A DNA stretch of 64,000 nt from Streptomyces rimosus (GTDB lineage: Bacteria > Actinomycetota > Actinomycetes > Streptomycetales > Streptomycetaceae), in NCBI RefSeq assembly GCF_008704655.1, contig NZ_CP023688.1, positions 2,604,001 through 2,668,000 of the forward strand, given 5' to 3'. Below, one piece after another: positions 7,985 through 64,000 of this stretch. The notes under the pieces are model-generated. The model was not told where the DNA came from, made no database searches, and worked only from the letters and a program-made list of their open reading frames with translations. Numbering within the stretch: the stretch's first letter is position 1; every line of letters starts with the position of its first letter. The position numbers and the translations under genes were made by a program.

Positions 7985-8583
7985 CGGACGATCCCGTCCA
8001 CCAGCAGCGCGGCTCCGGCACCGAGAGCGGCCAGCCCGCCGACCCCGACCAGGACGTAACGGACCACCACTCCCCCAGGCACACGGCGCCATGCCTCCCG
8101 GAACCCCGGGCCGCGGCGACCGCCGAATCCGGTCAGCAGGCAGAACAGACCCGCCACGACCGCACACACCGCGACACAGACGATCGCCAGGCTCCGCCAG
8201 ATCCACTGCTCGTCGATCATGACGAACCTGTAGTCCGTCTTCTGGATCCCCAGTTCCGTGCCCGGCTCGAATTTGGCCGGGGTCTCGACCGTCGCGTCCT
8301 CCACGACTGCGCCGCCCCGGTCGGCGCGGAAGGTGCCCGTACAGGTGTCGACGGGCCGCGCGTGCCGGTGCCGGGACGACCCGACGTGCTCGAACTGCGT
8401 ACGGCACTCCCGGACGGTCAGCGTGCCGGCGTCGCCCTTGTGGCCGTTGGGGTAACCCATGTCCGCGGCAGTCACCCCGCCGAAGAACACCCCGGCAAGG
8501 ACGAGACCGGCACCGACGACCCTGCCCGCGGAAGAGCGCCATCGGGCCGGGGAGCGCGGACGTGTGAAGGGCTGCGTTGGCAT
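7981..8583 (-). CDS. Tandem membrane protein, copy 1
   Basis: The 200-residue product is the first of three paralogues on the minus strand. A basic N-terminus is followed by a membrane segment near 20-38. The exposed domain has Cys motifs TVRECRTQFEH and DTCTGTFR. Two hydrophobic blocks finish the protein, the second after the FCLLTGFG motif. ATG 8583 is chosen by alignment with the sister proteins; the ribosome site is weak, and ATG 8616 is possible. Function is unknown. Confidence 0.65.
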   Translation of the reverse strand: MPTQPFTRPRSPARWRSSAGRVVGAGLVLAGVFFGGVTAADMGYPNGHKGDAGTLTVRECRTQFEHVGSSRHRHARPVDTCTGTFRADRGGAVVEDATVETPAKFEPGTELGIQKTDYRFVMIDEQWIWRSLAIVCVAVCAVVAGLFCLLTGFGGRRGPGFREAWRRVPGGVVVRYVLVGVGGLAALGAGAALLVDGIVR

Positions 8584-9222
8584 GGAGGCACCGTGTTGCT
8601 GTGGAGGACAGTTCATGAGTGCGGGGCAGTTGGGGCGGCTGCTCGGTGCTGGTACGGCCGGAGCCGCGGACCGGACGGTGAGCCGGGGACAGGGGCCGGA
8701 CCACCGGACGGTTGCATGGCCGGGGTGGCAGGATCGACCGCGAAGCCGGGGCGACCGGACGGAACGCGAGGCCGGGTGGGCCGGTGATCCGCGCCATCCG
8801 TACGACCGGGCAGGGCGCACGGTGGCCGCCCCATGCGGCCTGTGCGCCGCGTACTCCGAGGCGCACCACCGCTTGACCGGGCAGGTACCGAAACTTAACC
8901 ACCTCTTTCCCCGTCCGCACCACTCCCCTCCCGCCCCGCATTCCGACGGCCATCAACACCCACCCCGGGCAATCCCCCAAATTTCGATCCGCATTCGAGC
9001 GGATTCACCGAACCCCTCGCCCTCCAACCACCCTTCATCAACGCCCCGTTGTCCCCACTTTCACCACCGCTGTCCCCTCGCTGAGCGCCGCCGTCAACCC
9101 GGCGGCCGCCCCCATGGGCCGCCTTGACATGCCTGCGTTAAGAGCGCATAAAGTGGCCACGCTGGACGTGTCGAGAGTGAAACGCGCCAAGCACGAATGA
9201 CAGGGCAATGACGGGGGCTGTG
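8584..9222. other. Divergent intergenic region
   Basis: These 640 bases separate the leftward membrane-protein genes from the rightward WXG100 cassette. No open frame with a plausible protein was found. Positions 8900-9060 are strongly C-rich on the plus strand. The only feature noted is the promoter candidate at 9124-9154. Confidence 0.6.
9124..9154 (+). promoter_or_regulatory. Candidate promoter of the WXG100 cassette
   Basis: TTGACA at 9124-9129 is a perfect -35 box. TAAAGT at 9149-9154 fits the -10 box with a 19-base spacer; CATAAA at 9147 would give 17. The site ends about 70 bases before the start of the small ESX-like gene at 9223. Confidence 0.45.
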
Positions 9223-9552
9223 ATGGCGGACAAGGCATTCGACGTAGATCCCGACGTGCTGCGCACACAGGGTCACGCGTTCGTGAACATCGGCACGGAG
9301 TTCGCCAAGGCGGCCAAGAAACTGAAGGACGACCTGGAGGGCCTCGGAAAGCCCTGGGAGGACGCGGACTTCGGCGCCGTCTTCGACACCATCTACACAC
9401 CGATCCGCGACGGCATGTTCGAGTCAATGGATTCCCTGGGCGAACGCCTCGAAGACATCGGCGACAAACTCCAGGGCATGGCCCGAACGTACGCAGCGTC
9501 CGACGAACAGGGCGTGCACGTCGTCAGCTCGGTCCAGCGTCCCGCCATTTGA
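9223..9552 (+). CDS. WXG100-like small ESX protein, cassette A
   Basis: The product is about 109 residues, helical, with no signal peptide. GKPWEDADFGAVFDTIY holds the central Trp turn, a variant of the WxG motif, between two amphipathic helices. This is the size and shape of ESX substrates that dimerise and leave through type VII secretion. ATG 9223 is chosen because GGGGG lies five bases upstream; GTG 9220 and ATG 9208 are alternatives. It precedes a large WXG100_2-type protein by 200 bases. A clear paralogue lies in inverse orientation at 12400-12738. Confidence 0.7.
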   Translation: MADKAFDVDPDVLRTQGHAFVNIGTEFAKAAKKLKDDLEGLGKPWEDADFGAVFDTIYTPIRDGMFESMDSLGERLEDIGDKLQGMARTYAASDEQGVHVVSSVQRPAI

Positions 9553-9752
9553 GGCACCCGACTGACGGGCAGCCCGCACCGTACGGGCCGCACGAGGCCG
9601 CCCCGCACGGCCCACCCGGCCAGCCGCTCCCGCCCCCGCCTGGGGCCCGCTGCCCGCGCCCGCCCCTCGCCACGCCCTGATCCGCACCAACGCCAAGCTC
9701 AAGAACGACACTCCAGCCGCGCACGGCTGCTACCGCACGGGGGACGATCACT

Positions 9753-10745
9753 GTGTCACTGACACTGCCGAGCGAGGTCGCCTGGGTCCTCGGACTCCTC
9801 GGATACGACTGGCCGGAGGCCGACGAGGACGCGCTCTTCAAATGCGCCGAAACCTGGCGCACCTTCGCCACCCAGGTCGAGCAGGCGGCCTCGCAGGGCG
9901 GGTCGGCAGCAAATGAGGTGGTCGCGGCCAATACGGGCGAAGCGGTCGAAGGATTCACCAAGGAATGGGGCGCTTTCTCCGGCAGCTCCGGATCCGACCA
10001 TTACCTGCGCGATGCCCAACTGGCCGCCGAAGTCATCGCCCTGGCCTTCGACACGGCGGCCATCGCCGTACTCACCGGCAAGATCGCGATCATCGCCCAG
10101 CTCGTCGTGCTCGCTGTGGAACTCATCGCCGCACAGGCCGCCGCCCCGTTCACGTTCGGCCTTTCCGAAGCCGGCGCGGCGGGCGCCACACAGCTCACCC
10201 GCATCGCCGTCCGCGAAATCCTGAACAAGATCAAACAAGAGGTCGTCCAGGCCGCCACCAAGGCCATGGAACACGCGACGATGGACGCCATCAAGAAGAT
10301 GGCGAAGAAGGCCGTGTCCAAGGAAGCCCGCCAGCTGGCGCTGGACTACGCCAAGAAGACGGTCAAGGACACGGTCAAGGAGACCGTCAAGGACAAGGTC
10401 GTCGAAGAGGGCAAAGCAAAGGCCACCGAAGCCGCCACGGAGATGGGGCAGAACGTCGCCCAGCAGGGCATCGAGAACCATTTCGGCGCCCGCGACGGCA
10501 TGGACTGGGGCGAAACCGCCGACATCGGCAAGGAAAAGGCCGGCGAATACGTCGACGGCCTCAAGGAAGGCGCCCAGAGCCTGGCCGACCCCCAGACCTA
10601 CGTCGACCATGCCAAGGAAGACCTCACCAACCGCGGCCTCGACTCGGCCCAGAAACACGTCGACAACCGAACCGGCGGCGCCGCCACGCGCCATCAGGAC
10701 GTAACGGACGGTGCGAAGGATTCTGTGCGGGCTGTGTTTGGGTGA
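9753..10745 (+). CDS. WXG100_2-type large protein, cassette A (putative type VII substrate)
   Basis: The 330-residue protein starts with LPSEVAWVLGLLGYDWPEADED, the hallmark of the WXG100_2 (CpnT N-terminal-like) domain found at the front of actinobacterial type VII effectors. Residues 95-150 are hydrophobic and Ala-rich. The rest is a charged, Lys-rich amphipathic helical region with repeats such as TVKDTVKETVKD. No toxin or enzyme domain is recognisable after it. It ends in VRAVFG, as its inverse paralogue does. GTG 9753 is preceded by GGGGGA. It is probably exported with the small protein encoded upstream. Confidence 0.7.
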   Translation: MSLTLPSEVAWVLGLLGYDWPEADEDALFKCAETWRTFATQVEQAASQGGSAANEVVAANTGEAVEGFTKEWGAFSGSSGSDHYLRDAQLAAEVIALAFDTAAIAVLTGKIAIIAQLVVLAVELIAAQAAAPFTFGLSEAGAAGATQLTRIAVREILNKIKQEVVQAATKAMEHATMDAIKKMAKKAVSKEARQLALDYAKKTVKDTVKETVKDKVVEEGKAKATEAATEMGQNVAQQGIENHFGARDGMDWGETADIGKEKAGEYVDGLKEGAQSLADPQTYVDHAKEDLTNRGLDSAQKHVDNRTGGAATRHQDVTDGAKDSVRAVFG

Positions 10746-11268
10746 GGGGGCTGGGATGGGGGTTTGAGCGGGGGCAGTCGGCTGCGGGGCGCCGCCGCGG
10801 GGATCCGGAACGGCCGGTGCCAGCTGTTTGCATGGGGCGGTCGTTGTCCGTGGAACTGGCGCCCAACCCGCGACCACGTGGCCGGTGTCGCCGCACCGGC
10901 CGCACCAGCCGCACCCCCTCAGTCATCAGCCGATCGGGAACTCGAATCGAGGACGCGGAGGGGGTGGCCGGAGCCGCGAGTACCGCGGCACGCCCCGCGC
11001 CCGCCGCCCCGTACCCATCCCCTCGCTCGCCGGTCCGCACCCCGCACCCATCCCCTCGCCTTTCGCTCTTCGCCCCGCGCGTGTCCCCTCATGCCGCCGC
11101 CCGTACGAGAGTCGGGTTTGAGCAGCCGCCCCTGCGGGCGTTGCTGCGCACCCTCTACGAGCCCCGCCCCAGATGCCCGCCATTCGCACTCGAATCGGCC
11201 TGAGTGACCGAAGTACGAGCGCCGCGCGCCGTCACCCCATCCGCCATGCCGACGCCAATGCCGCACCA
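10746..11268. other. Convergent intergenic spacer, no gene seen
   Basis: These 523 bases lie between the two convergent cassettes. Frames are open by composition only, and none gives a credible protein. Short direct repeats built on the phrase CATCCCCTCGC appear near 11017-11062. No clear terminator hairpin was found by eye. Confidence 0.5.
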
Positions 11269-12372
11269 TCAGCCAAAGACAGCGCGCACGTCCTCAGCAC
11301 CACGACCTCCCGCGCCTCCGCCCCTTTGCACCCCTCTCCCCTCCCCCACCCCCTCAGCATCTCCCACTCCCTCATCCGGCCCTCCCTCATCCGCCTCTGC
11401 CCTCCCGCGCCGAAGGCCCTCCCTCGCCTTCGTCGCCAGCGCGTCGTTGCCCGCGTCCGTAGCCCCGTCGACCAGCCGATCCCGATGAGTTGCAGGGTCG
11501 AGAAGGCCGGCCAAGCCGCCCTCCCTCTCCCCGCCACCACTCGGCGCTCCGACGACATACTCACCGGGCTTGAACGCCCCACCTTCGACCGCACCGAACT
11601 GCTTCCCGAATTCCTCCTTGGCGCCGTCCAGCGTGTCCCCCAGATCGACGCCATCACGAGCACCGAAGTGGCTCTCGACACCTTGCTGGACGATGTCCTG
11701 CCCGGCCCCGGTCACGATGTCCGTCGCCTTCTCCTTGACGGGATCGACAACGACATCCCTGACGATCTTCTTCGCATAATCCGTCGCGAAGTCCTTGACC
11801 TGCTTCCTCACGAAGTCCGAGGCGATCTCCTTCACACCCTTCTCGGCGGCTTCCGCCATCGCCTTGGTAATCGCCTCGACAACCTCCCGCTTCAGCGTGT
11901 CCAAGAGCCGTCTCACCACGAGCCGGGTGGCCTGAGTCACCCCTAGTGCGCCCACCTCGGAAAGCCCAAGCGTGAACGGAGCGGCAGCCTGCGCCGAGAT
12001 GAGCTCAACAGCCAGCACGACAAGCTGCACGATCACCTCGACCTTGGCCGCGAAAACCGCAGCGGCCGCCACTTCGAAAGCCATCCCGATTACATCGGCC
12101 GCGATCTGCGCATCAGGAAGGTAAGCGCCCACCCCGCCGGAAAAGTCTTCCCAAGTCTCCGAAAAGCGGCTCACCGCCTCACCCGAGTTGGCGGACACAA
12201 CCTCTCGTACGACTGATCCGCCCCGCCCATCGGTCCGTCCGACCTGAGCCGCGAACTCCAGCCAGGCCCGCCCGCACTCCATGAGCTTGTCCTCGTCAGC
12301 CTCGGGCCAGGAGTACCCGAGCAGATCGAGCACCCACACGACCTCACCGGGCAACGTCAGCGCCACGGTCAC
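11269..12372 (-). CDS. WXG100_2-type large protein, cassette B (putative type VII substrate)
   Basis: This 367-residue paralogue of the protein at 9753-10745 matches it almost collinearly. It has the same LPGEVVWVLDLLGYSWPEADED opening, the LVVLAVELISAQAAAPFTLGLSE core and a QQGVESHFGARDGVD motif. A Gly/Glu-rich tail replaces the Lys-rich one, but it also finishes in VRAVFG. No toxin domain is seen. GTG 12372 is behind GAGGGGCG; GTG 12366 is possible. It starts 27 bases after its small WXG100-like partner. Confidence 0.7.
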   Translation of the reverse strand: MTVALTLPGEVVWVLDLLGYSWPEADEDKLMECGRAWLEFAAQVGRTDGRGGSVVREVVSANSGEAVSRFSETWEDFSGGVGAYLPDAQIAADVIGMAFEVAAAAVFAAKVEVIVQLVVLAVELISAQAAAPFTLGLSEVGALGVTQATRLVVRRLLDTLKREVVEAITKAMAEAAEKGVKEIASDFVRKQVKDFATDYAKKIVRDVVVDPVKEKATDIVTGAGQDIVQQGVESHFGARDGVDLGDTLDGAKEEFGKQFGAVEGGAFKPGEYVVGAPSGGGEREGGLAGLLDPATHRDRLVDGATDAGNDALATKAREGLRRGRAEADEGGPDEGVGDAEGVGEGRGVQRGGGAGGRGAEDVRAVFG

Positions 12373-12399
12373 CGCCCCTCGGGACGCGCCCCGCCACCA

Positions 12400-12738
12400 C
12401 TACCCCCAAGGCGAAGAGTACGAACGCGACACCTGCCCGACGCAATGCACCCCACCCCGCTCCGCCGCCTCATACCCCCTCGCCATTTCCTGCAGCTTCT
12501 CCCCCACCCCCTCCATCCGTTTCCCGAGCGAGTCCATGGACTTGAACATGCCGTCCCGAACCGGCTCGTAAATCATCGCGAAGGTCTCGGCGAATTCTGC
12601 CCCACGCCACGGCTCCCCCAGCCCCTTCAACGTCGCCTGCAACCGTTTAGAGGCAACCCCGAACTCCACCCCGATCTCAGCGAACTCTCGCCCCTGACAC
12701 CGAAGCCCATCCGAATCGACATCGAACGCACCACTCAC
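12400..12738 (-). CDS. WXG100-like small ESX protein, cassette B
   Basis: The product is 112 residues and is a paralogue of the 9223-9552 protein. Shared features are the FDVD start, GEPWRGAEFAETFAMIYEP at the Trp turn and DGMFKSMDSLG. Here the turn reads PWRG. GTG 12738 is preferred because GGGGG lies six bases upstream; GTG 12750 is less likely. It is followed after 27 bases by the large cassette-B protein, so the pair forms an operon. Confidence 0.7.
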   Translation of the reverse strand: MSGAFDVDSDGLRCQGREFAEIGVEFGVASKRLQATLKGLGEPWRGAEFAETFAMIYEPVRDGMFKSMDSLGKRMEGVGEKLQEMARGYEAAERGGVHCVGQVSRSYSSPWG

Positions 12739-13117
12739 CAAAACCCCCACTCGCGATCAGCCTCGCCGCATCAACAGACATCACACTCGCCAGCGGCTCA
12801 AGATGCCGCGAGCCTTCCAGGCCCCCACCCCCGCAGCAATCGCGCCCCTCACCACCCCCGCCACTTCAACCACACACCCCGAAGAAACCTTTATCGCCCA
12901 CACTCACGCGCCACCGAGACAGACCCCGCGCCCACCCCCACCACAAACCGAGCACTCCCGACCCCACCCCACCCACCAACTGATCCCCACCCCAGCAAAA
13001 ACCGACAACAACAGAACCAACACCGCCAAAAATCCACCACCACTCATCCGAGCGAACGACTATCACACCACTGACAAAACACACCGCTGTGCCGCTCCGC
13101 CCCGCCCAAACATGCCG
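12739..13117. other. Intergenic spacer upstream of cassette B
   Basis: This stretch of about 380 bases is rich in A and C on the plus strand and visibly lower in G+C than its surroundings. No credible coding frame was found. It must hold the promoter for the minus-strand cassette B, but no clear boxes were recognised. Confidence 0.5.
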
Positions 13118-13147
13118 AAGGGGCCCGCATCAGGCTGCGGGCCCCTT
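13118..13147 (-). terminator. Terminator after the broken mycosin
   Basis: A perfect 12-base stem (13118-13129 with 13136-13147) and 6-base loop lie 46 bases beyond the stop codon of the minus-strand mycosin remnant. Confidence 0.75.
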
Positions 13148-13192
13148 CTCGCTGACTGCTCGTTGGCTTCTCGCCGACTTCTCTTGCCGCGG

Positions 13193-14515
13193 CTACTGCC
13201 CGGGAGGCTGAGCGGGCGGAGCCGACGGGTACGAACCGTACGGGCTCGGCTGCTGCTGGTACGGGCCGGGCTGGTGCGGCGGGTAGCCGACGCTGCCACC
13301 GGGACCGCCGTAACCACCAGGACCACCGGACGGCGGACCACCGTTGTTCTTCTTCCGCCGAACCACAACGATGACGACCACGAGCAGCACCACGATCACG
13401 ACCAGTACAAGACCGATGATCACGATAGGCGGAATCCCGATACCGCCACTCCCACTCGCCTTCTGCTCACCGGCTTCGCCGGCAGCGGCCCCGTCATGAC
13501 CCGCCGACGTCGGATCCTGCACCTCAGGAGCCTTGAGCGGCCCGTACTTGGAGCCGGCCGGAATGTTCTCGGTCAGCGCGCGATACGGGCGGATGGTGCC
13601 GTAGCCGTACTTGGGACTCGGCGTGCTGATACCGGACTTGCCGTCAGGAGTAATCGCCGTCTTCGTCAGACGGTTGGCCACCTGGCCGGCAGTAAGGTCC
13701 GGAAACTTGGAGCGCACGAGCGCGGCCGCAGCCGACACGTAGGCCGTGGCGTCGGACGTCCCGTCGGCCTGACGGTACTTGGACCCGAGACCGGCGGAGT
13801 AGATACCTTCGCCGGGGGCGAGGAGGCGGATATGCGGACCGTAGTTCGAGTTCTCCCACACTTGATTGTTCTTCGTCACTGCGCCGACCGCCAGGACCCC
13901 TGGCGCAGCAGCGGGATACTGGGGCGTCGATTCCCCGTCATTTCCCGTACCAGCGACTAGCAATACATCCTTTTGCAGGGCATAATTGATTGCGTTTTTC
14001 TCGTCGTCGCCGATCTGCCCCTGCCCGAACGACATATTGACAACCTTGGCTCCTTAGTCTACCGCGTAGCGGAGCGGAGCCGCAAAGCCTTGTCCGGACA
14101 GAGTGTCCTCGGAAGTCTGTGTCTTGACCGGCAGGATTTTCGCATCCGGCGCCAAGCCCATAATTCCGTCAGCCTGGCTGGGCCCATGTCCGTGCCCGGC
14201 GATCAGTGCTGCCATCGCCGTCCCGTGGTCGTCGGAATCCTCGTGGTCAGCAGTACCGCCCCCAGGGGCGAAACTTTTTCCAGGAAGTACATTCCCCTTG
14301 AGGTCGGGGTGGTCCCCGTTGACTCCGCTGTCGATGACCGCCACGGTGACGTTCTTACCTGTGGACTGCTGGCGGATCTTGTCGGCGCCGAAGGCCCCGA
14401 GCGACCACTGCCCGTCCCGAATGTAATCCGCCGAAGCAGCCGGCGCGGTGCCGATGACCAGCGCTCCCACCAAAACTGCGCCGCTCACCGCACGCAGCAC
14501 CTGCTTAACGCTCAC
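13193..14515 (-). pseudogene. Mycosin-like subtilisin protease interrupted by an in-frame TAA
   Basis: Read through, the frame would encode about 440 residues like its intact neighbour at 14648-15961. The first part (14515-14054, 153 codons) has a signal peptide, the catalytic Asp in AVIDSGVN (62) and the His in DDHGTA (97). The reading frame then meets TAA at 14054-14056, exactly where the neighbour has Ala in YAVDAGAS. The second part continues in the same frame from ATG 14035 with NMSFGQG, the oxyanion-hole Asn, the catalytic Ser in GTSDATAYVS, a membrane segment and a Gly/Pro tail. The triad is therefore split. AAGGAG directly follows the stop, so reinitiation, readthrough or a sequencing error cannot be excluded. 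Confidence 0.75.
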
Positions 14516-14568
14516 CTCTTGAAACCTCTCTTGTGAGGGCTAACGCACAACCGGCGTTCCGAAAACAC

Positions 14569-14599
14569 AAAGCCCGCAGTCACACGGACTACGGGCCTT
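14569..14599 (-). terminator. Imperfect hairpin between the two extra mycosins
   Basis: A 13-base stem with two mismatches (14569-14581 with 14587-14599) and a 5-base loop lies 49 bases after the stop of the upstream intact mycosin. It may end that transcript before the broken copy. Confidence 0.5.
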
Positions 14600-14647
14600 G
14601 AGCCACTGCGTACATCACTCCGCCCGCCTAACGCGAGCGCTGAGCGT

Positions 14648-15961
14648 CTACTGCGGCGGCGGGGGCTGCTGCGGCGGGTACGACGGGTACGCGCCGGGAG
14701 GGCCCGCCTGCTGCTGATAGGCGTTCGGGGGGTAGGGAGCCCCTCCAGAGCCACCTGGACCGCCCCAGCCACCAGGACCACCAGGCGGCGGCCCGTTGCG
14801 ACGGTTCTTCTGACGGCTGACGACCACCACAACGATGATCACGACGACGATCAGGACACCCGCGGCAATACCGACAACAACACCGATGCTCAGACCGTCG
14901 TCCTTCTTGTCACCAGCCTGCTGGCTGCCGCCACTCGCGGCATTCGCGCCGCCCGTTCCGGTGGACGGTTGCACTTCGGGAGCCTTCAACGGACCGTTCT
15001 TCGACCCGGCTGGGATGTCTTGCGTCAGAGCCCGAAGGGGACGAATGAATCCATAACCGTAGTAGGGGTCGGGCAGGTTCTTGCTTTCCATGCCCGGAGG
15101 CATGCCTGCGGTCTTCACCAACCTGTTGGCGATCTGACCAGCGGTGAGGTCAGGAAACTTGGAGCGCAGCAGAGCTGCGGCAGCCGAAACGTAGGCGGTC
15201 GAGTCCGAAGTGCCCGTTGCCTGCCGGTATTGCCTCGAGGCAGCTGCTGACCTGATATGAATACCGGGAGCAGTCAGCATCAACGCCGAGCCGTGGTTGG
15301 AATCCTCCCACACTCGCCCGTTTTCTCCCACAGCGCCCACTGCGACGACACCGGGTGAGGAAGCCAAAGAGCCAAGCCGCATACCCTCATTGCCGGAACC
15401 TGCTACCAGCAGGACGTTCTTCTTGAAGGCATACGCAATCGCTTCTTCCTCCGACGACGAAATACTACTGGGCACAATCGACATGTTGATGACGGATGCC
15501 CCGGCGTCAACGGCATAGCGAATCGCCGGCCCCAGGTCAGTGCTGTCTACAGTCTCCCCGGTCACAGGAAGAGCAACAGGAAGGATCTTGGCGTCAGGAG
15601 CCAGCCCCTTCACTCCGGCTGAATTCCCCGGGCCATGTCCGTGGCCCGCGATGATCGAAGCCATGCTCGTGCCATGGTCCACGGTGCTTTCTTGATCAGC
15701 GCGCTGGCCTTCGATGAAGCTCTTGCCCTGAAGAACGTTCCCTTGCAAGTCAGGGTGCTGGCCGTTGATAGCGCTGTCGATTACCGCAACCGTGACGCCC
15801 TTGCCTGTCGACTTCTGCCACACTTGATCGGACAGAAACGAGGTCAGCGGCCACTGCGCGTCCCTGGTCTCATCCGCAGCAGCAACCGGCGCGGTGCCGA
15901 AGAGCATCGCTCCCGCCAGCACGGCACCTCCCACCGTGCGGAGCGTTCGCGCAAGTCTCAT
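14648..15961 (-). CDS. Type VII secretion-associated serine protease, extra mycosin
   Basis: The 437-residue membrane-anchored subtilisin-family protease has a signal peptide ending near APVAAADE. The triad is Asp62 (AVIDSAIN), His96 (VDHGTS) and Ser252 (GTSDSTAYVS), with Asn191 in GSGNEG as oxyanion residue. A strong membrane helix rich in Val and Ile lies near 360-385, then a Gly/Pro/Tyr-rich tail faces the other side. Mycosins process ESX substrates and stabilise the secretion complex. The long tail and a divergent Ser region (GTSDST, not GTSFAAP) separate it from the mycP at 18087-19370. ATG 15961 has GGAAAGG upstream. Confidence 0.85.
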   Translation of the reverse strand: MRLARTLRTVGGAVLAGAMLFGTAPVAAADETRDAQWPLTSFLSDQVWQKSTGKGVTVAVIDSAINGQHPDLQGNVLQGKSFIEGQRADQESTVDHGTSMASIIAGHGHGPGNSAGVKGLAPDAKILPVALPVTGETVDSTDLGPAIRYAVDAGASVINMSIVPSSISSSEEEAIAYAFKKNVLLVAGSGNEGMRLGSLASSPGVVAVGAVGENGRVWEDSNHGSALMLTAPGIHIRSAAASRQYRQATGTSDSTAYVSAAAALLRSKFPDLTAGQIANRLVKTAGMPPGMESKNLPDPYYGYGFIRPLRALTQDIPAGSKNGPLKAPEVQPSTGTGGANAASGGSQQAGDKKDDGLSIGVVVGIAAGVLIVVVIIVVVVVSRQKNRRNGPPPGGPGGWGGPGGSGGAPYPPNAYQQQAGPPGAYPSYPPQQPPPPQ

Positions 15962-15984
15962 CTCGAAACACCCTTTCCTGACAA

Positions 15985-16019
15985 GATGGGGCCCGCTTGC
16001 GGGGACTGCGGGCCCCATC
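15985..16019 (-). terminator. Terminator after the PPE-like gene
   Basis: A perfect 12-base stem (15985-15996 with 16008-16019) and 11-base loop lie 40 bases beyond the stop of the 16059-17711 gene, closing the mycP operon. Confidence 0.75.
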
Positions 16020-16058
16020 ACGCTTCACTACCGGTTACTCGACCGCGGTCATCGACTT

Positions 16059-17711
16059 CTACTCGATGACCCTCGGAGCCACGTTACGCTGCGTCGTCCA
16101 GGTCTCCTCGTCCTCCACGAGGTAGTCAGGACGCTGCCCGTTGTTCTGGTCCTTGTCCTTGCCCTTCGCGCCATGTGCACCCGGCGCTCCACCCATCGGG
16201 CGCCGCCCTTCCTTGGCGCCCTGCTGCGTGCCGCCCCGGCTTCGGTGCAAACCCGAACCACCCTGGGCTCCGGCTCCGGACTTCTTGCCGGCGCCGCCCA
16301 CGACCCCGCCCTTCTGACGGGCGAGAGGGCCACCGCGACCGGCCGCACCCTTACCGCCGGCGCCGCGGCCTGCGGCACCAGCCGCACCGCCCATGCCCGG
16401 CGTGCCACCGGCTCGACCGGTGCCACGCGCTCCGGCTCCGGTTCCGGCCCCCTTGGCTGCGCCGCCGCCCTTGGCCGCGCCACCACCGGTCCCGCCGATG
16501 CCGCCGATCATTCCGGGCGCACCGCCAGAGGGCCCGCCTCCACCGATGGAACCCAGGCTTCCGCCTCCACCGGGAAGACCACCGCCTCCCAATCCGCCAC
16601 CGCCGAGGCCAGTTCCGCCCCCCGGACCCAGGCCATTCTTGCCGCCACCGCCAAGGCCATCGAGCCCTGTGCCGATATTCGGCGGCTTCGGCCCAGGCGT
16701 CGGCGAAGTTCCGATACCGCCGTTGATGCCCTTCGGACGCGGCGGTTCCAGGGGAGTAGGCGTTTGATAACCGCCGCCCTTGAGCCCCGGAACCTTGGCT
16801 CCGCCGGTTCCCGGCTTTGGCGCGGAAGGCGTCGGCCCGAATCCACCGATTCCAGGCAAGGGACCACTACCACCTGGGCCTGGGTCGTGTGGTGTGATGT
16901 TGTCGTCCTTGTCGACGATGGCCCCGGACTTTTTAAGCGACGCGCTGCCAACACGGTAGACGGTCGCCAGCTGCTCCATGTAATGCGCAGCTTCGAGCTC
17001 TCGCTCCCTGTCAACCGACAGGTTGGTGCGGTTCGCATTCATGGCGTCGTAGATGCTGGTCTTGGGGTTGGCAAGAGCAGCATTCAGGCCGGAATCGTCA
17101 CGGCCGTCGCCCGCTCCGAAGATCTTCGCGCCAATTCCGGCCGCAATCTGCCCACCGGGGACAACGCCGCCGATGGCAGCCGCTTTCCCGGTGCCGGACT
17201 GGGCGAAGTCGCCAATCCGGTCGGCTTTCCGCTCCCACCATGTTGGTTCTTCAACGCCCTCCACCAGCTTCTTGACAGTGCTGAGGCGCTCACTGATCTG
17301 CTCCATGATGTGCCCCGTGTTGTGGGGGTACGGAGCGCAGGCTGCGAAGTTGTTGCTGATCTTTTGTGCGGCCCTGGCGAACGCGTCGGCACTCGCACCG
17401 TGCCAGGACTGGAGAACCTTGGTCACGGCATCGTCGAACTGCTTCTTGATTCCGCTGCTCCAGTCCTCGCCAACCAGCGAGACCCGGACCTTCTTCCAGC
17501 CGTTAGCGACGTCTGCGACCGTATCCGGGCTGGCGTTTTGCACCATCTGCTTCAGCGCGTTGAGTCGCTGCTGGGTGAACTGAGGACGGCTCTGCCCGAT
17601 TTCGTGCGGCGTTTCCCTGTTGTCACCGGACGACGCCGTCTTGCCGTCCGTGTCGTACCCCTTCGGCACCTTGATCTCCGCCGGCTTGAAACCAGATCCG
17701 TCTGAGGCCAT
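16059..17711 (-). CDS. PPE-like Gly/Pro-rich type VII secretion substrate
   Basis: The 550-residue protein has a helical N-terminal 260 residues with a WXG/PPE-like turn (QSWHGASADAFARAA near residue 103). Residues 270-500 are low-complexity Gly/Pro/Ala with many GGxG repeats. The conserved-looking end reads PDYLVEDEETW. This matches the helical-domain-plus-glycine-tail plan of actinobacterial ESX substrates, with no enzymatic domain. ATG 17711 follows GGGGGAC. It is third in an operon after mycP and the 104-residue ESX-like gene, 58 bases after the latter, and may use that protein as export partner (inference). Confidence 0.7.
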   Translation of the reverse strand: MASDGSGFKPAEIKVPKGYDTDGKTASSGDNRETPHEIGQSRPQFTQQRLNALKQMVQNASPDTVADVANGWKKVRVSLVGEDWSSGIKKQFDDAVTKVLQSWHGASADAFARAAQKISNNFAACAPYPHNTGHIMEQISERLSTVKKLVEGVEEPTWWERKADRIGDFAQSGTGKAAAIGGVVPGGQIAAGIGAKIFGAGDGRDDSGLNAALANPKTSIYDAMNANRTNLSVDRERELEAAHYMEQLATVYRVGSASLKKSGAIVDKDDNITPHDPGPGGSGPLPGIGGFGPTPSAPKPGTGGAKVPGLKGGGYQTPTPLEPPRPKGINGGIGTSPTPGPKPPNIGTGLDGLGGGGKNGLGPGGGTGLGGGGLGGGGLPGGGGSLGSIGGGGPSGGAPGMIGGIGGTGGGAAKGGGAAKGAGTGAGARGTGRAGGTPGMGGAAGAAGRGAGGKGAAGRGGPLARQKGGVVGGAGKKSGAGAQGGSGLHRSRGGTQQGAKEGRRPMGGAPGAHGAKGKDKDQNNGQRPDYLVEDEETWTTQRNVAPRVIE

Positions 17712-60300: not shown

Positions 60301-61212
60301 ATGAGAGATACACCCCGCTCACGGGAAGCCGTGAGCGACGCCCGGCCGGGGCTTCCCCGGCTTCGGCCAGGCCGTGCCTTCGCGCACACATCCGGGGCCC
60401 CGCGCCCCGGGCATCCTCACCGATCGGACGGCCGCCCGCCCCAAACCCCCCGGGGCGCGCGGCGCTCCGGTCAGCGCGGCCGCCTCGGAACCACCCCCCC
60501 TGTTCCGAGGCGGCCGGCCTTCTTCCTCCGGCGCGGCCTTCTCCCCGCCGTTCTGTGCGCCGTGCTCTTCACGGTCCTCGCCTGGCAGGTGGCCTCCGGC
60601 GGTCCGCTGTGCGCGCTGGACGAACGCCTCGGCCGCACACTGGTCCACAGCGCCATGCCCGCCTCGCTCGCGGAGTTTTTCGCCGACCTCGGCAACACGG
60701 TCGTCGCGCTGCCGGTGCTCGCGCTCGCGGCGCTGCATGCGGCCTGGCGCGGCAGGCGGGCAGCCGCGCCGCGCTGGTGGTTGGCGCCGCTGGCCGCCGT
60801 ACTGACCATGGCGGTGGTGCCCGCGCTGGTGGTCCCGTTGAAGGTCTGGCTGGCCCGCCCGGGGCCGCCCGAGATGGCCGGCGGCGCGCACACCGGCTTC
60901 TTCCCTTCGGGGCACGCGGCGACGGCGGCGGTCGCGTACGGATCGGTCGCCCTGCTGCTCACCGCGCTGCGCGAACACCCGCGCAGTCCGATGCCGGCCG
61001 CTGTCGCAGTCATCGGCGTGGGGCTGCTCAATCTGGCGGTCGGCATCGGCCTGGTGCGCCGCGGCTATCACTGGCCGCTGGATGTGCTGGCCAGTTGGTG
61101 CCTGGCCGGGGTGCTGCTCACGGTCTGCACGGCGGTATGCGGGCGGTGGGCCGCCCACCCGCACCAGCCGGACAGTCAGCTAGCCACGTCGAACAGCTCC
61201 GACGCGATGTAG
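60301..61212 (+). CDS. PAP2-family membrane phosphatase
   Basis: The product has at most 303 residues; its first 70 are Pro/Arg-rich and may not be translated. Five or six membrane helices follow from about residue 75. The phosphatase signature is complete: KVWLARP (Lys181 to Pro187), PSGH (202-205) and RGYHWPLD (Arg254, His257, Asp261). It probably dephosphorylates a lipid phosphate or pyrophosphate at the outer face. No ribosome site fixes the start. Its end overlaps the convergent isonitrile synthase gene by 37 bases. Confidence 0.82.
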   Translation: MRDTPRSREAVSDARPGLPRLRPGRAFAHTSGAPRPGHPHRSDGRPPQTPRGARRSGQRGRLGTTPPVPRRPAFFLRRGLLPAVLCAVLFTVLAWQVASGGPLCALDERLGRTLVHSAMPASLAEFFADLGNTVVALPVLALAALHAAWRGRRAAAPRWWLAPLAAVLTMAVVPALVVPLKVWLARPGPPEMAGGAHTGFFPSGHAATAAVAYGSVALLLTALREHPRSPMPAAVAVIGVGLLNLAVGIGLVRRGYHWPLDVLASWCLAGVLLTVCTAVCGRWAAHPHQPDSQLATSNSSDAM

Positions 61213-62216
61213 TGGCTCGGCCGCCAGCTCGGGCCCGCCGGTATCCCCACCCGCTCCGCCTCGTGCCGCTTCATCAGCCGGAAGCGGTCCGTGCCGGTCT
61301 GCACGACGACGGCGTGCCAGGGCGTGAGCCAGTTGTCCGCCGCCTCCAGCAGCGCGATCCCGAACTTCGCCGCGCCGCAGGGCTGGGGGTGGATGGACAG
61401 CCGCACGTTGCGCGGGTAGTGGTGGGCGATCAGCTCGCCCCATGCCCGGCTGCGCCGCAGCACGCCGTACGCGCGCCCGCGGCATTCGCGCTGCAACTGC
61501 GCCTTCGAGCCGGTCCAGTTTGCGGTGTCCTCGACGAGGAAGCGGATGGTGCCCCGGTAGTGGCTGAGCGCCGGGCCGCCGCCCCGTACCTCGTCCCGCA
61601 GTTCCTCCAGGCTCTGCGCGTGGTCCCGCTCCAGGAGAGCGCGTTTTTCGTCGTAGGTGCGGTCCTCGTAGACCTGGTCCAGCCCGAAGGTGTCGATGTG
61701 CTTCAGGCCGGTCGCCTCGATCATGTCGCGCAGCGCCTTGCCGTACGCGTCGATGTGCGCGTCCGGGACGCGTATGAGGTCGCCGAAGACATGGCCGTCC
61801 GAGCAGATCAGCAGCCGGGCGCCGGGCGGGTAGACGGCGCCGATCGCGACGCACAGGTCGTCCAGGAAGCGCAGCGAGAGCAGTTCTCCGAGGTCCGGCA
61901 GGTGGCCGGCGACCTTGGCGGGGTTGGGCGACTTGCAGGGGAACGCCGGCAGGGTCAGCAGCACCGGCTCGCGGCGGGCGACGAAGTCGCGCAGCTGGGC
62001 GAGCTGTTCGGCGAAGCACTCCTCCGGCCGGTGGCCGTCGTGCGGGCCGCCGTCCCCGGCCGCCGCCTCGTCCGGGGCACCGACGGGGCGGCGGTGCGGC
62101 AGCAGCAGTTCCAGGATCTGTGCGCAGTACTGCCGCGTGGCGGCTTCGTACGCGGCGTCACCCTCGTCCTCCCCCTGCGCCGGGCGCTCGGCGTGCTGCT
62201 CGTACGTCACGGTCAT
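61176..62216 (-). CDS. PvcA/DIT1-family isonitrile synthase
   Basis: The 346-residue protein of the DIT1/PvcA family converts the amino group of Tyr or Trp to an isonitrile, using a pentose phosphate as carbon source in studied members. It carries LTLPAFPCKSPNPAKVAGHLPDLGE, ICSDGHVFGDLIRVPD and RLSIHPQPCGAAKFGI, which are family hallmarks, and it is full length. ATG 62216 overlaps the oxygenase stop as ATGA, with GGGGGAC upstream, so synthase and oxygenase are co-translated. It is expected to be the first committed enzyme of a small-molecule pathway; the amino acid used cannot be told from sequence alone. Confidence 0.9.
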   Translation of the reverse strand: MTVTYEQHAERPAQGEDEGDAAYEAATRQYCAQILELLLPHRRPVGAPDEAAAGDGGPHDGHRPEECFAEQLAQLRDFVARREPVLLTLPAFPCKSPNPAKVAGHLPDLGELLSLRFLDDLCVAIGAVYPPGARLLICSDGHVFGDLIRVPDAHIDAYGKALRDMIEATGLKHIDTFGLDQVYEDRTYDEKRALLERDHAQSLEELRDEVRGGGPALSHYRGTIRFLVEDTANWTGSKAQLQRECRGRAYGVLRRSRAWGELIAHHYPRNVRLSIHPQPCGAAKFGIALLEAADNWLTPWHAVVVQTGTDRFRLMKRHEAERVGIPAGPSWRPSHYIASELFDVAS

Positions 62217-63142
62217 GCCGTCCCCCGCTGGGTGTCGGTCCCGGTGGCGCTCTGCTGGTCGTGGACGTAGCTGCGCAGCGGGGGATCGCCCAGGACGTGG
62301 ACACGGCGCAGGTGGCGGGGCAGTCCGCGGCGGTAGGGCACACGAGTGTGCAGCAGGGTGTAGTTGTCGGCGATGACGATGTCGTCCTGCTGCCAGGCGT
62401 GCACGTACACATGCCGGGGGTCGTACGCGGCGTCGCGGATGGCGGCCAGTTCGGCGGCCTCCGCCTCGCCCGTCAGGCCGTTGATGCCCACGTCCGGCTC
62501 GTTGATGATGTGCTCGCCGTCCGGCACCGGTTCCAGGAACCGCATCACCGGGAACCCGGCGTCGGGGTGCGGCTCGATCAGCGGCGAGACGACGAGTCCG
62601 CCGTAGTGCGAGACCTTGGCGTTGCGGTAGCTCAGGGTGAGTCCGCGCCAGCGCTCCAGGGTCTCCGGGTCGGCGTCGGCGAGGACACGGGTGGTGTCGC
62701 AGAAGAGCGTGCCGCCGCCCTCGGCCGCCTCGGGGGCCGCGACGCAGTGGAAGATCTGGAACTCGGGTACGTGCTCGACGTACATTCCGTCCCAGTGCAG
62801 CGGCATGAAGCCGGTGTCGAAGACGTGGTCCTCGGGGTCCTGGTGGGCGCGTACGTCGAAAACCGTGCCGAACGGCCATTCCATCACCTCGCCCCAGGTG
62901 CGCGCGTAGGCGTCGAGGGCCGTGGCGTCGGCGGGCGGGGTGAAGCCCCGCAGGGCGACGAGATGGTGGCGGCGGGCCAGGTCGCGCAGCCACGGCACGG
63001 GGACGGCGGTGACCGGGGTGCCGGGCTCGGCCGGGGTGATCAGGACGCCGAAGGGGCCGGGTTCGGCCAGGGTCCAGGACCGGGTGTCGTCTAAGGCGGC
63101 GGCGGTGGCCGGGCCGGACGCGGGGACGGCTTGGGACGTCAT
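62213..63142 (-). CDS. PvcB-like Fe(II)/2-oxoglutarate oxygenase
   Basis: The 309-residue TauD-family enzyme has iron ligands His116 and Asp118 (LHWDGMYVEH) and His265 (LLHTRVPYRRG). Arg276 or Arg279 probably holds 2-oxoglutarate. In pvc/isn systems this partner oxidises the isonitrile amino acid, causing decarboxylation to a vinyl isonitrile or ring closure. Coupling to the synthase by ATGA supports that here. ATG 63142 follows GGAGAGGAA. It is divergent from a DegT-family aminotransferase across 268 bases. Confidence 0.88.
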   Translation of the reverse strand: MTSQAVPASGPATAAALDDTRSWTLAEPGPFGVLITPAEPGTPVTAVPVPWLRDLARRHHLVALRGFTPPADATALDAYARTWGEVMEWPFGTVFDVRAHQDPEDHVFDTGFMPLHWDGMYVEHVPEFQIFHCVAAPEAAEGGGTLFCDTTRVLADADPETLERWRGLTLSYRNAKVSHYGGLVVSPLIEPHPDAGFPVMRFLEPVPDGEHIINEPDVGINGLTGEAEAAELAAIRDAAYDPRHVYVHAWQQDDIVIADNYTLLHTRVPYRRGLPRHLRRVHVLGDPPLRSYVHDQQSATGTDTQRGTA

Positions 63143-63203
63143 GGTTCCTCTCCGGGACAGCGGTGTGCCGGGCCGGTCGGCCGGGCACGGGACAGCGACA
63201 GTA

Positions 63204-63255
63204 CTTGAGGTTTCAAGAGCTTTCCATCTTCGAGTGACATCTCGCTGACAGATGT
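63204..63255. promoter_or_regulatory. Palindromes between isonitrile operon and aminotransferase gene
   Basis: CTTGA-GGTT-TCAAG (63204-63217) and ACATCT-CGCTGAC-AGATGT (63237-63255) are perfect inverted repeats in the locally AT-richer part of the divergent region. They are candidate operators for shared control. Promoter hexamers were not convincing. Confidence 0.4.
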
Positions 63256-63410
63256 GACCCTTCCGCCGCCGCCCCGTGCGCGGAAGACACCGCCGCCGGA
63301 CCGAACCGTCCATGGCCGCTTCGGTCCCGCGCCGCCCGCTTCCCGGGCCCCAGGCACCGCCCCAGACTCGCCCCAGGCACCCGCCCCTTCGAGGATGTGA
63401 GGACCACGAC

Positions 63411-64000
63411 ATGATCGACCTCTTCCAGCCGCAGGCCGGGGACGCGGAACTGGCCGCCGTGGCGGCGGTGTTCGCGGACCGCTGGCTCGGCCACGGGCCG
63501 CGCAGCGCCGCCTTCGAGGCCGCCTTCGCCGCGCACGTCGGAGTGCGCCCGGAGCATGTACTGTTCCTCAACTCGGGCACGGCGGGCCTCTTCCTCGCCA
63601 CCGAACTTCTCGGCCTGCGGCCCGGCGACGAGGTGATACTGCCCTCGCCCAGCTTCGTGGCCGCCGCCAACGCGGTCGTACGGGCCGGCGGCCGCCCCGT
63701 CTTCTGCGACGTGGACGCCCGCACCCTGAACCCGAGCGCGGAGGACATCGAGGCCGCCGTCACGCCCCGTACCAAGGCGGTGGTGGTGCTGCACTACGGC
63801 GGCTACCCCGGCGACATCGCGCGCATCGCCGCCCGCTGCCGCGCGGCGGGCCGCACCCTGATCGAGGACTGCGCCTGCTCGGTGGCCTCACGCGCGGACG
63901 GCCGGGCGGTCGGCACTTTCGGCGATCTGGCGATGTGGAGCTTCGACGCGGCCAAGGTGCTGACCACCGGCGACGGCGGCATGCTGTACGTACGCGACGC
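63411..64000 (+). CDS. DegT/DnrJ/EryC1-family aminotransferase, partial at right edge
   Basis: The first 196 residues are in the window; the gene continues beyond. It is a PLP-dependent enzyme of the sugar-aminotransferase family with LFLNSGTAGLFLATELLGL, GDEVILPSPSFVAAANAV and DFG-type LIEDCACS. The expected PLP Lys is in WSFDAAKVLTTGDGGM. Such enzymes aminate nucleotide-bound ketosugars or related cyclic ketones. ATG 63411 has GTGAGGA upstream. Being divergent from the isonitrile operon, it likely belongs to the same biosynthetic cluster, perhaps making an amino-sugar part (inference). Confidence 0.85.
   Translation, partial: MIDLFQPQAGDAELAAVAAVFADRWLGHGPRSAAFEAAFAAHVGVRPEHVLFLNSGTAGLFLATELLGLRPGDEVILPSPSFVAAANAVVRAGGRPVFCDVDARTLNPSAEDIEAAVTPRTKAVVVLHYGGYPGDIARIAARCRAAGRTLIEDCACSVASRADGRAVGTFGDLAMWSFDAAKVLTTGDGGMLYVRD

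Follow-up and report, generated by a model that had tools for sequence, protein, structure and literature searches.

Which compound is made by an isonitrile synthase and its partner oxygenase when their genes stand beside genes for sugar biosynthesis? The pair in question, here called pvcA and pvcB, lies near the right end of a 64,000-nucleotide stretch of the Streptomyces rimosus genome (the window; G000:C1:2604001-2668000 in a genome of 9.36 Mb on a single contig). Read together with the adjoining DNA of the same genome (L003, genome 2660001-2680000, for which the window coordinate equals the L003 coordinate plus 56000), the locus extends about 8.6 kb beyond the window, and we consider it probable that it is a compact cluster for a glycosylated isonitrile resembling rhabduscin, with a sugar made in the cluster itself. 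The cluster appears to be a new variation on the theme of that insect-bacterial compound, in which an aromatic amino acid, probably tyrosine, would be turned into the isonitrile and then joined to an amino sugar with an unusual branch.

The isonitrile pair and the predicted sugar pathway

Both proteins of the pair have intact frames. The synthase, which a sequence-only reading of the window had described as a complete PvcA/DIT1-type protein, scores 256.7 bits against the DIT1_PvcA domain (cut-off 26.4) and matches the solved structure 3E59 at E 4e-75, and its gene overlaps that of the oxygenase in the ATGA that had been taken as a sign of coupling. The best solved relatives of the oxygenase are PIsnB (7TCL, E 9e-83) and PvcB (3EAT, E 3e-75). 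Aligned to PIsnB it keeps H, D and H at the positions of His101, Asp103 and His250, bearing out the intact HxD...H motif claimed earlier, and Trp74 and the carboxylate-anchoring Arg265 are likewise kept.

The same reading had placed a divergent DegT-family aminotransferase gene 268 bases away and had taken the pair for the edge of an isonitrile cluster. That gene does begin at 63411 and run past 64000, and biosynthetic genes continue to the right of the window (Table 1). Glycosyltransferase, nucleotide-sugar and regulatory genes, which had been named as things to look for there, are all present, while none of the genes called between pvcA and the regulator was an exporter gene. The five sugar genes on the minus strand overlap their neighbours by 1-4 bases. 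Together with the first aminotransferase, DegT1, they provide the set of functions expected for a sugar of the kijanose or tetronitrose type, namely RmlA, RmlB, a 2,3-dehydratase, a 3-aminotransferase, a 3-C-methyltransferase and a 4-aminotransferase, the C-3 and C-4 assignments being made from sequence relatives. DegT1 matches TlmJ (5UID) at E 2e-144 and 484 bits, with the next match at 190 bits, and 2 of its 120 listed relatives carry the source name dTDP-4-dehydro-2,3,6-trideoxy-D-glucose 4-aminotransferase. DegT2, which we take to be a C-3-type aminotransferase from its relatives, scores 300 bits against 7B0D, 286 against 2OGA and 123 against TlmJ; its top match is a chain named glutamine--scyllo-inositol transaminase, with sugar enzymes close behind, among them 2OGA, whose table entry reads 'Transaminase' and which we assume to be DesV. 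The C-methyltransferase carries a YDEH stretch in its match to TcaB9. The glycosyltransferase matches CalG3 (E 1e-72), the rhamnosyltransferase 9KE1 (E 8e-70) and SnogD (E 6e-65), and scores 196 bits against TIGR04516, below the cut-off of 440 for that model.

What the sequences show directly is the enzyme families, the intact frames, the conservation of the gene order and the constraint on the genes; the substrates, the order of the steps and the final linkage we infer as follows. By analogy with the reaction of its family (that of isnA is described in PMC7949033), PvcA would act on an aromatic amino acid, L-tyrosine being the likeliest, and make its amino group into an isonitrile, the extra carbon coming from ribulose-5-phosphate. 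PvcB would desaturate the side chain, and the carboxylate may be either lost or retained in that step. RmlA and RmlB would give dTDP-4-keto-6-deoxyglucose, from which the 2,3-dehydratase would remove the 2-OH; DegT2 would add an amino group at C-3, the TcaB9-like enzyme would methylate C-3, and DegT1 would add the second amino group at C-4 to yield dTDP-3,4-diamino-3-C-methyl-2,3,4,6-tetradeoxy-D-hexose. The glycosyltransferase may then attach this sugar to the phenol of the tyrosine-derived isonitrile. By these assignments all the enzymes for a diamino C-methyl sugar appear to be present and none to be spare, since C-4 is finished by an aminotransferase instead of a 4-ketoreductase, and no 5-epimerase is required for a D-sugar.

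Two other kinds of sugar were considered. A nitro sugar was rejected because the genes called between pvcA and the regulator include no recognisable flavoprotein that would oxidise the amino group at C-3, and the FAD oxidoreductase further to the right belongs to the DAO family; a diamino rather than a nitro sugar is therefore predicted. The sequence-only reading had suggested a glycosylated or an aminocyclitol-bearing isonitrile, and here the first half stands, with a hexose as the sugar, while the aminocyclitol falls away, as DegT1 is closest to sugar aminotransferases and dTDP-hexose genes adjoin both DegT genes.

Table 1. Features of the cluster in window coordinates (continued beyond 64000), with L003 coordinates for those that reach beyond the window.
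Feature	Window position	L003 position	Strand	Details
pvcA-type isonitrile synthase, 346 aa, intact	61176-62216		-	PF05141 DIT1_PvcA E 3.5e-76; genome G000:C1:2665179-2666216
pvcB/isnB-type Fe(II)/2-oxoglutarate oxygenase, 309 aa, intact	62213-63142		-	PF02668 E 3.7e-46
Divergent intergenic region, 268 bp	63143-63410			Between pvcB and first aminotransferase gene
Operator-like palindrome CTTGAG-NN-TTCAAG	63204-63217			Intergenic alignment
DegT1 (TlmJ-like, assigned as C-4 aminotransferase), 386 aa, complete	63411-64571	ends 8571	+
Glycosyltransferase (GT)	64575-65708	8575-9708	+	PF06722/PF21036
Putative C-methyltransferase (TcaB9-type, 3-C)	65728-66954	9728-10954	-	TcaB9 E 5e-145
Putative 2,3-dehydratase (EvaA-type)	66954-68300	10954-12300	-	EvaA E 5e-127
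DegT2	68300-69412	12300-13412	-	7B0D E 2e-88, 2OGA E 4e-84, QdtB E 2e-75
RmlB	69409-70389	13409-14389	-	TIGR01181, over cut-off
RmlA	70386-71453	14386-15453	-	TIGR01208, over cut-off; start placed from gene contexts of related loci
Helix-turn-helix regulator	71621-72640	15621-16640	-	PF13384 28.3 bits (cut-off 24.6); PF00196 below cut-off

Conservation and distribution of the cluster

Close orthologues were found in S. rimosus subsp. rimosus WC-3904 (G048), S. monomycini and S. sp. CB02923 (G337), represented by loci L037-L039, and in genome G036. The order of the enzyme genes is kept in four species (that of the window, G036, S. monomycini and CB02923) at 78-95% protein identity: G036 has the whole cluster with its regulator in the same order at 90-95%, and S. 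monomycini and CB02923 have the nine enzyme genes at 78-92%, the stretch read ending just past RmlA. When the window genome is compared with each of these three, the nine enzyme genes have pairwise dN/dS values of 0.17-0.40. The nine form a self-contained cluster, small enough to bring the product within reach of expression and isolation.

PvcA relatives at E <= 1e-20 occur in 79 of 392 genomes of the genus, with identities of >= 88% in the window genome, G036, WC-3904 and CB02923 alone. A tree of 45 PvcA sequences (all 42 of the genome_contigs loci, the two copies of the window genome and one solved enzyme) joins the window protein to those of its own species group in a clade of four with 100/100 support. 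The phylogenetic check that had been proposed thus places the window PvcA with its own species group only and with no already characterised cluster. Sister to this clade are 20 Streptomyces and Kitasatospora PvcA proteins whose genes adjoin a P450 gene, the 24 being held together at 100/100. The C-methyltransferase has a match at E <= 1e-60 in 57 of the 392 genomes, and in at least three of the 57 (the window genome, G036 and CB02923, all of this species group) a PvcA gene is found no more than 10 kb away. Such co-location counts are lower bounds, with up to four candidates scored per genome for the methyltransferase and the dehydratase; the positions of the genes were matched by visual comparison, and some neighbours may be hidden by breaks between contigs.

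The window genome holds a second PvcA, 57% identical to the first, in a region at G000:C1:6525284-6534507 (spanning L006 and L007), next to genes for a P450, a binding-protein/FecCD/ATPase transport set, a heavy-metal P-type ATPase and a PCuAC copper chaperone, and this locus looks like one for a metal-binding product of the xanthocillin type. Among the 19 P450-adjoining PvcA loci in genome_contigs, Fec-like genes are in view in 17 and an ATPase-like gene in 13. In Kutzneria sp. 744 (L062 7277-12784) the PvcA gene adjoins genes for a class-V aminotransferase and a flavin-reductase-like protein, with a PvcB-like gene on the opposite strand.

The oxygenase and the divergent region

In the published rule for this oxygenase family, a vinyl isonitrile (PIsnB type) goes with Lys or Arg at position 107 and Asn or His at 188, and an isocyanoacrylate (PvcB type) with Leu at 107 and Cys at 188 (PMC9467999). 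Altering one of the two residues at a time failed to switch the product (PMC9467999), so that the rule is best read as a correlate. The two positions were read in the window and in 22 of the 42 related loci, those with a PvcB-like match of >= 150 residues. The window PvcB and all three of the close orthologues read (L037-L039) have Val and Leu at the positions of PIsnB K107 and N188; the PIsnB signature was seen in L058, L060, L064 and L068 and the PvcB signature in L066, while L057 and L059 fit neither. The Val/Leu oxygenase provides a direct test case for the rule as a means of forecasting products. Twelve oxygenases from Actinomycetota and Bacteroidota (L062, L065, L067, L069-L076, L078) carry Ala/Ala, Val/Ala or Thr/Ala here, unlike both published types. 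A PvcB tree of 25 sequences recovers the window clade at 100/100 and does not resolve its place among its neighbours, for which reason the idea of separate lineages for pvcA and pvcB was dropped.

The intergenic region between pvcB and DegT1 contains a palindrome that is present in all five orthologous intergenic regions, its two central bases being variable. The sequence ACTTGANNNNTCAAGA occurs once in the 9.36-Mb genome and its reversed control not at all; a longer block has one exact place in the genome and one further place with 3 mismatches. It is a reasonable guess that the palindrome is a candidate local operator.

Loss of the sugar genes in WC-3904 and alternative explanations

In WC-3904 a stretch matching L003 10269-16295 has been lost, taking with it most of the methyltransferase gene and the genes for the dehydratase, DegT2, RmlB and RmlA, and shortening the regulator gene by about two thirds. 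DegT1 and the glycosyltransferase are pseudogenes, and pvcA-pvcB is whole. Three-taxon estimates of dN/dS on the WC-3904 branch, made on short distances, are 0.26 for PvcA and 0.32 for PvcB, close to the flanking controls (class-III aminotransferase 0.27, PAP2 0.29, FAD oxidoreductase 0.17), against 0.62 for DegT1, 0.75 for the glycosyltransferase and 0.83 for the 120-codon methyltransferase remnant; the last value is weak because the same 120 codons give 0.80 on the branch of G036, where the gene is intact. DegT2 was left out of these estimates, its apparent match in WC-3904 being, to judge from its low identity, a cross-match to DegT1. Between the broken glycosyltransferase gene and the methyltransferase remnant WC-3904 carries 2.4 kb (L037 4112-6537) with an amidohydrolase gene (PF04909) and a MarR-type gene (PF12802).

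Several observations weigh against a single pathway to a glycosylated, tyrosine-derived isonitrile. PvcA scores 249.9 bits against the NCBI equivalog model for L-tyrosine isonitrile synthase, which has a cut-off of 600 bits; it is accordingly not filed as that equivalog, and tyrosine is put forward as the likely substrate. The Val/Leu pair of the window PvcB fits neither the PIsnB-type nor the PvcB-type signature, the acceptor of the glycosyltransferase is a predicted one, and no genes for an exporter, self-protection or N-acylation were recognised between pvcA and the regulator. We know of no compound from this cluster. In WC-3904 pvcA and pvcB stay under constraint after the sugar was lost, and the pair therefore does not depend on the sugar.

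This pattern is the best evidence for two independent neighbouring units, in which the product of pvcA-pvcB is a free isonitrile, or else resembles paerucumarin, and the sugar block glycosylates something made elsewhere in the genome. The rarity of methyltransferase relatives near PvcA genes points the same way, as do the neighbourhoods read around relatives of the methyltransferase or of the C-4 aminotransferase, 12 of 13 of which lack a PvcA. Yet the same order and the shared divergent region are found in four of the five species with the pair, the surroundings of the sugar block show no recognisable orphan pathway for an aglycone (neither in window 1-60500 nor in the 52 kb on the right-hand side do the called genes include a recognised polyketide synthase, nonribosomal peptide synthetase or other such pathway), and the loss in WC-3904 is a mark of modularity rather than proof of separate work in intact strains. 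We therefore regard two separate units as unlikely. It is less likely still that the pathway stands with a sugar that is mono-amino or a differently ordered 3-C-methyl one, for instance because one of the DegT enzymes is superfluous or each serves a branch of its own. DegT roles were assigned from sequence relatives and C-3 and C-4 aminotransferases share one family, which leaves some room for this, but the relatives are clearly distinct (484 bits to TlmJ for DegT1 against 123 for DegT2), and without DegT1 no gene of the cluster would finish C-4. That we are dealing with a relic, which has decayed in WC-3904 and is unexpressed or of no use in the other species, would agree with the cluster being broken in one of the five species carrying the pair; given the intact frames and the low pairwise dN/dS of the enzyme genes in the other four, it is highly improbable.

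With the glycosylated isonitrile retained as the probable product, the WC-3904 pattern supports a use for the aglycone, and as a natural experiment it makes testable whether the isonitrile needs glycosylation for its role. A bolder proposal, possible though rather doubtful, is that PvcB gives a third outcome beyond the two published types, that the product belongs to a new class of dibasic, C-methyl-branched diaminosugar isonitriles, and that the free core is useful in itself, the sugar being a removable group for delivery or protection. A core with a use of its own would explain why its genes are still selected in WC-3904 after most of the sugar genes were lost.

Gene calling and surroundings

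Genes were called by a simple script that works from positional composition and is adjusted to high-GC DNA, and gene contexts were read for 39 of the 42 genome_contigs loci (all except L068, L076 and L078; L057 is short). The cluster is flanked on one side by genes for a class-III aminotransferase and a PAP2 protein and on the other by genes for the DAO-family FAD oxidoreductase and ABC transport. To judge from their sequences, the 44 genes called in window 1-60500 are presumably those of a type VII secretion locus together with housekeeping functions.

Comparison with known systems

Rhabduscin requires isnA, isnB and a glycosyltransferase (PMC6386379), and the present locus, like the rhabduscin cluster of Xenorhabdus nematophila / Photorhabdus luminescens, brings together an isonitrile synthase, an Fe/2-oxoglutarate oxygenase and a glycosyltransferase, here encoded on the divergent strand. 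The present cluster differs in having a complete dTDP-sugar pathway, predicting a C-methyl-branched diamino sugar, and in its Streptomyces host. Rhabduscin itself takes over a 4-acetamido sugar from the supply for the cell envelope. Since rhabduscin is already described as a glycosylated isonitrile (PMC13005658), a glycosylated isonitrile is not new in itself, and to that extent the novelty hinted at by the sequence-only reading does not hold. Its supposition that this is not a characterised Streptomyces cluster agrees with our search: in an open-access library, which covers only part of the literature, no characterised Streptomyces cluster of the same order was found, and none of the papers listed has a title or start of abstract that describes a Streptomyces PvcA/PvcB cluster with sugar genes.

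The paerucumarin pvc genes of Pseudomonas aeruginosa likewise encode PvcA and PvcB homologues. To our knowledge that pathway has no sugar genes. Its PvcB has the Leu/Cys signature, and PIsnB-type enzymes combine K/R with N/H (PMC9467999), whereas the present PvcB has Val/Leu.

A second architecture, in which PvcA stands with a P450 and deoxysugar genes, was found in six Streptomyces genomes, S. sp. DH12 and G387, G301, G196, G058 and G032 (L046, L105-L109). The five besides DH12 emerged when PvcA positions were compared with the 2,3-dehydratase matches listed, at least these five having the two genes <= 10 kb apart. All six of the DH12-type clusters have genes for a P450, PvcA and RmlA together with 3,5-epimerase-like (PF00908), ketoreductase-like and 2,3-dehydratase-like genes; RmlB and a C-3-type aminotransferase are in view in four of the six, a glycosyltransferase in two and a SARP-like regulator in three, and in none of them do the 20 kb read include a gene for a C-methyltransferase or for a C-4 aminotransferase. 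Their epimerase-like and ketoreductase-like genes point to an L-sugar. They resemble the present cluster in setting a PvcA relative beside dTDP-deoxysugar genes in Streptomyces, and differ in having a P450 in place of PvcB; no publication on them was found. Sugar genes beside PvcA are thus not unique to the present clade, and there are at least two Streptomyces forms. In genome G007, which is not among the dehydratase matches listed, the 20 kb surrounding PvcA are free of such sugar genes.

On the sugar side, the published order for kijanose (kij) is KijD5, KijD4, KijB1, KijD2, KijD1 and the C-4 aminotransferase KijD7, with KijD3 as the oxidising flavoprotein (PMC10951976), and the present sugar genes correspond to this set minus KijD3. 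Unlike the kij and tca spirotetronate pathways, the cluster has no recognised genes for a nitroso-forming oxidase, N-methylation or a carbamate, and its neighbour is the isonitrile pair, not a polyketide synthase. The tetronitrose (tca) pathway shares the same six enzyme types. The S. rimosus cluster would thus join the isonitrile chemistry of PvcA and PvcB with the branched diamino sugar line of kijanose.

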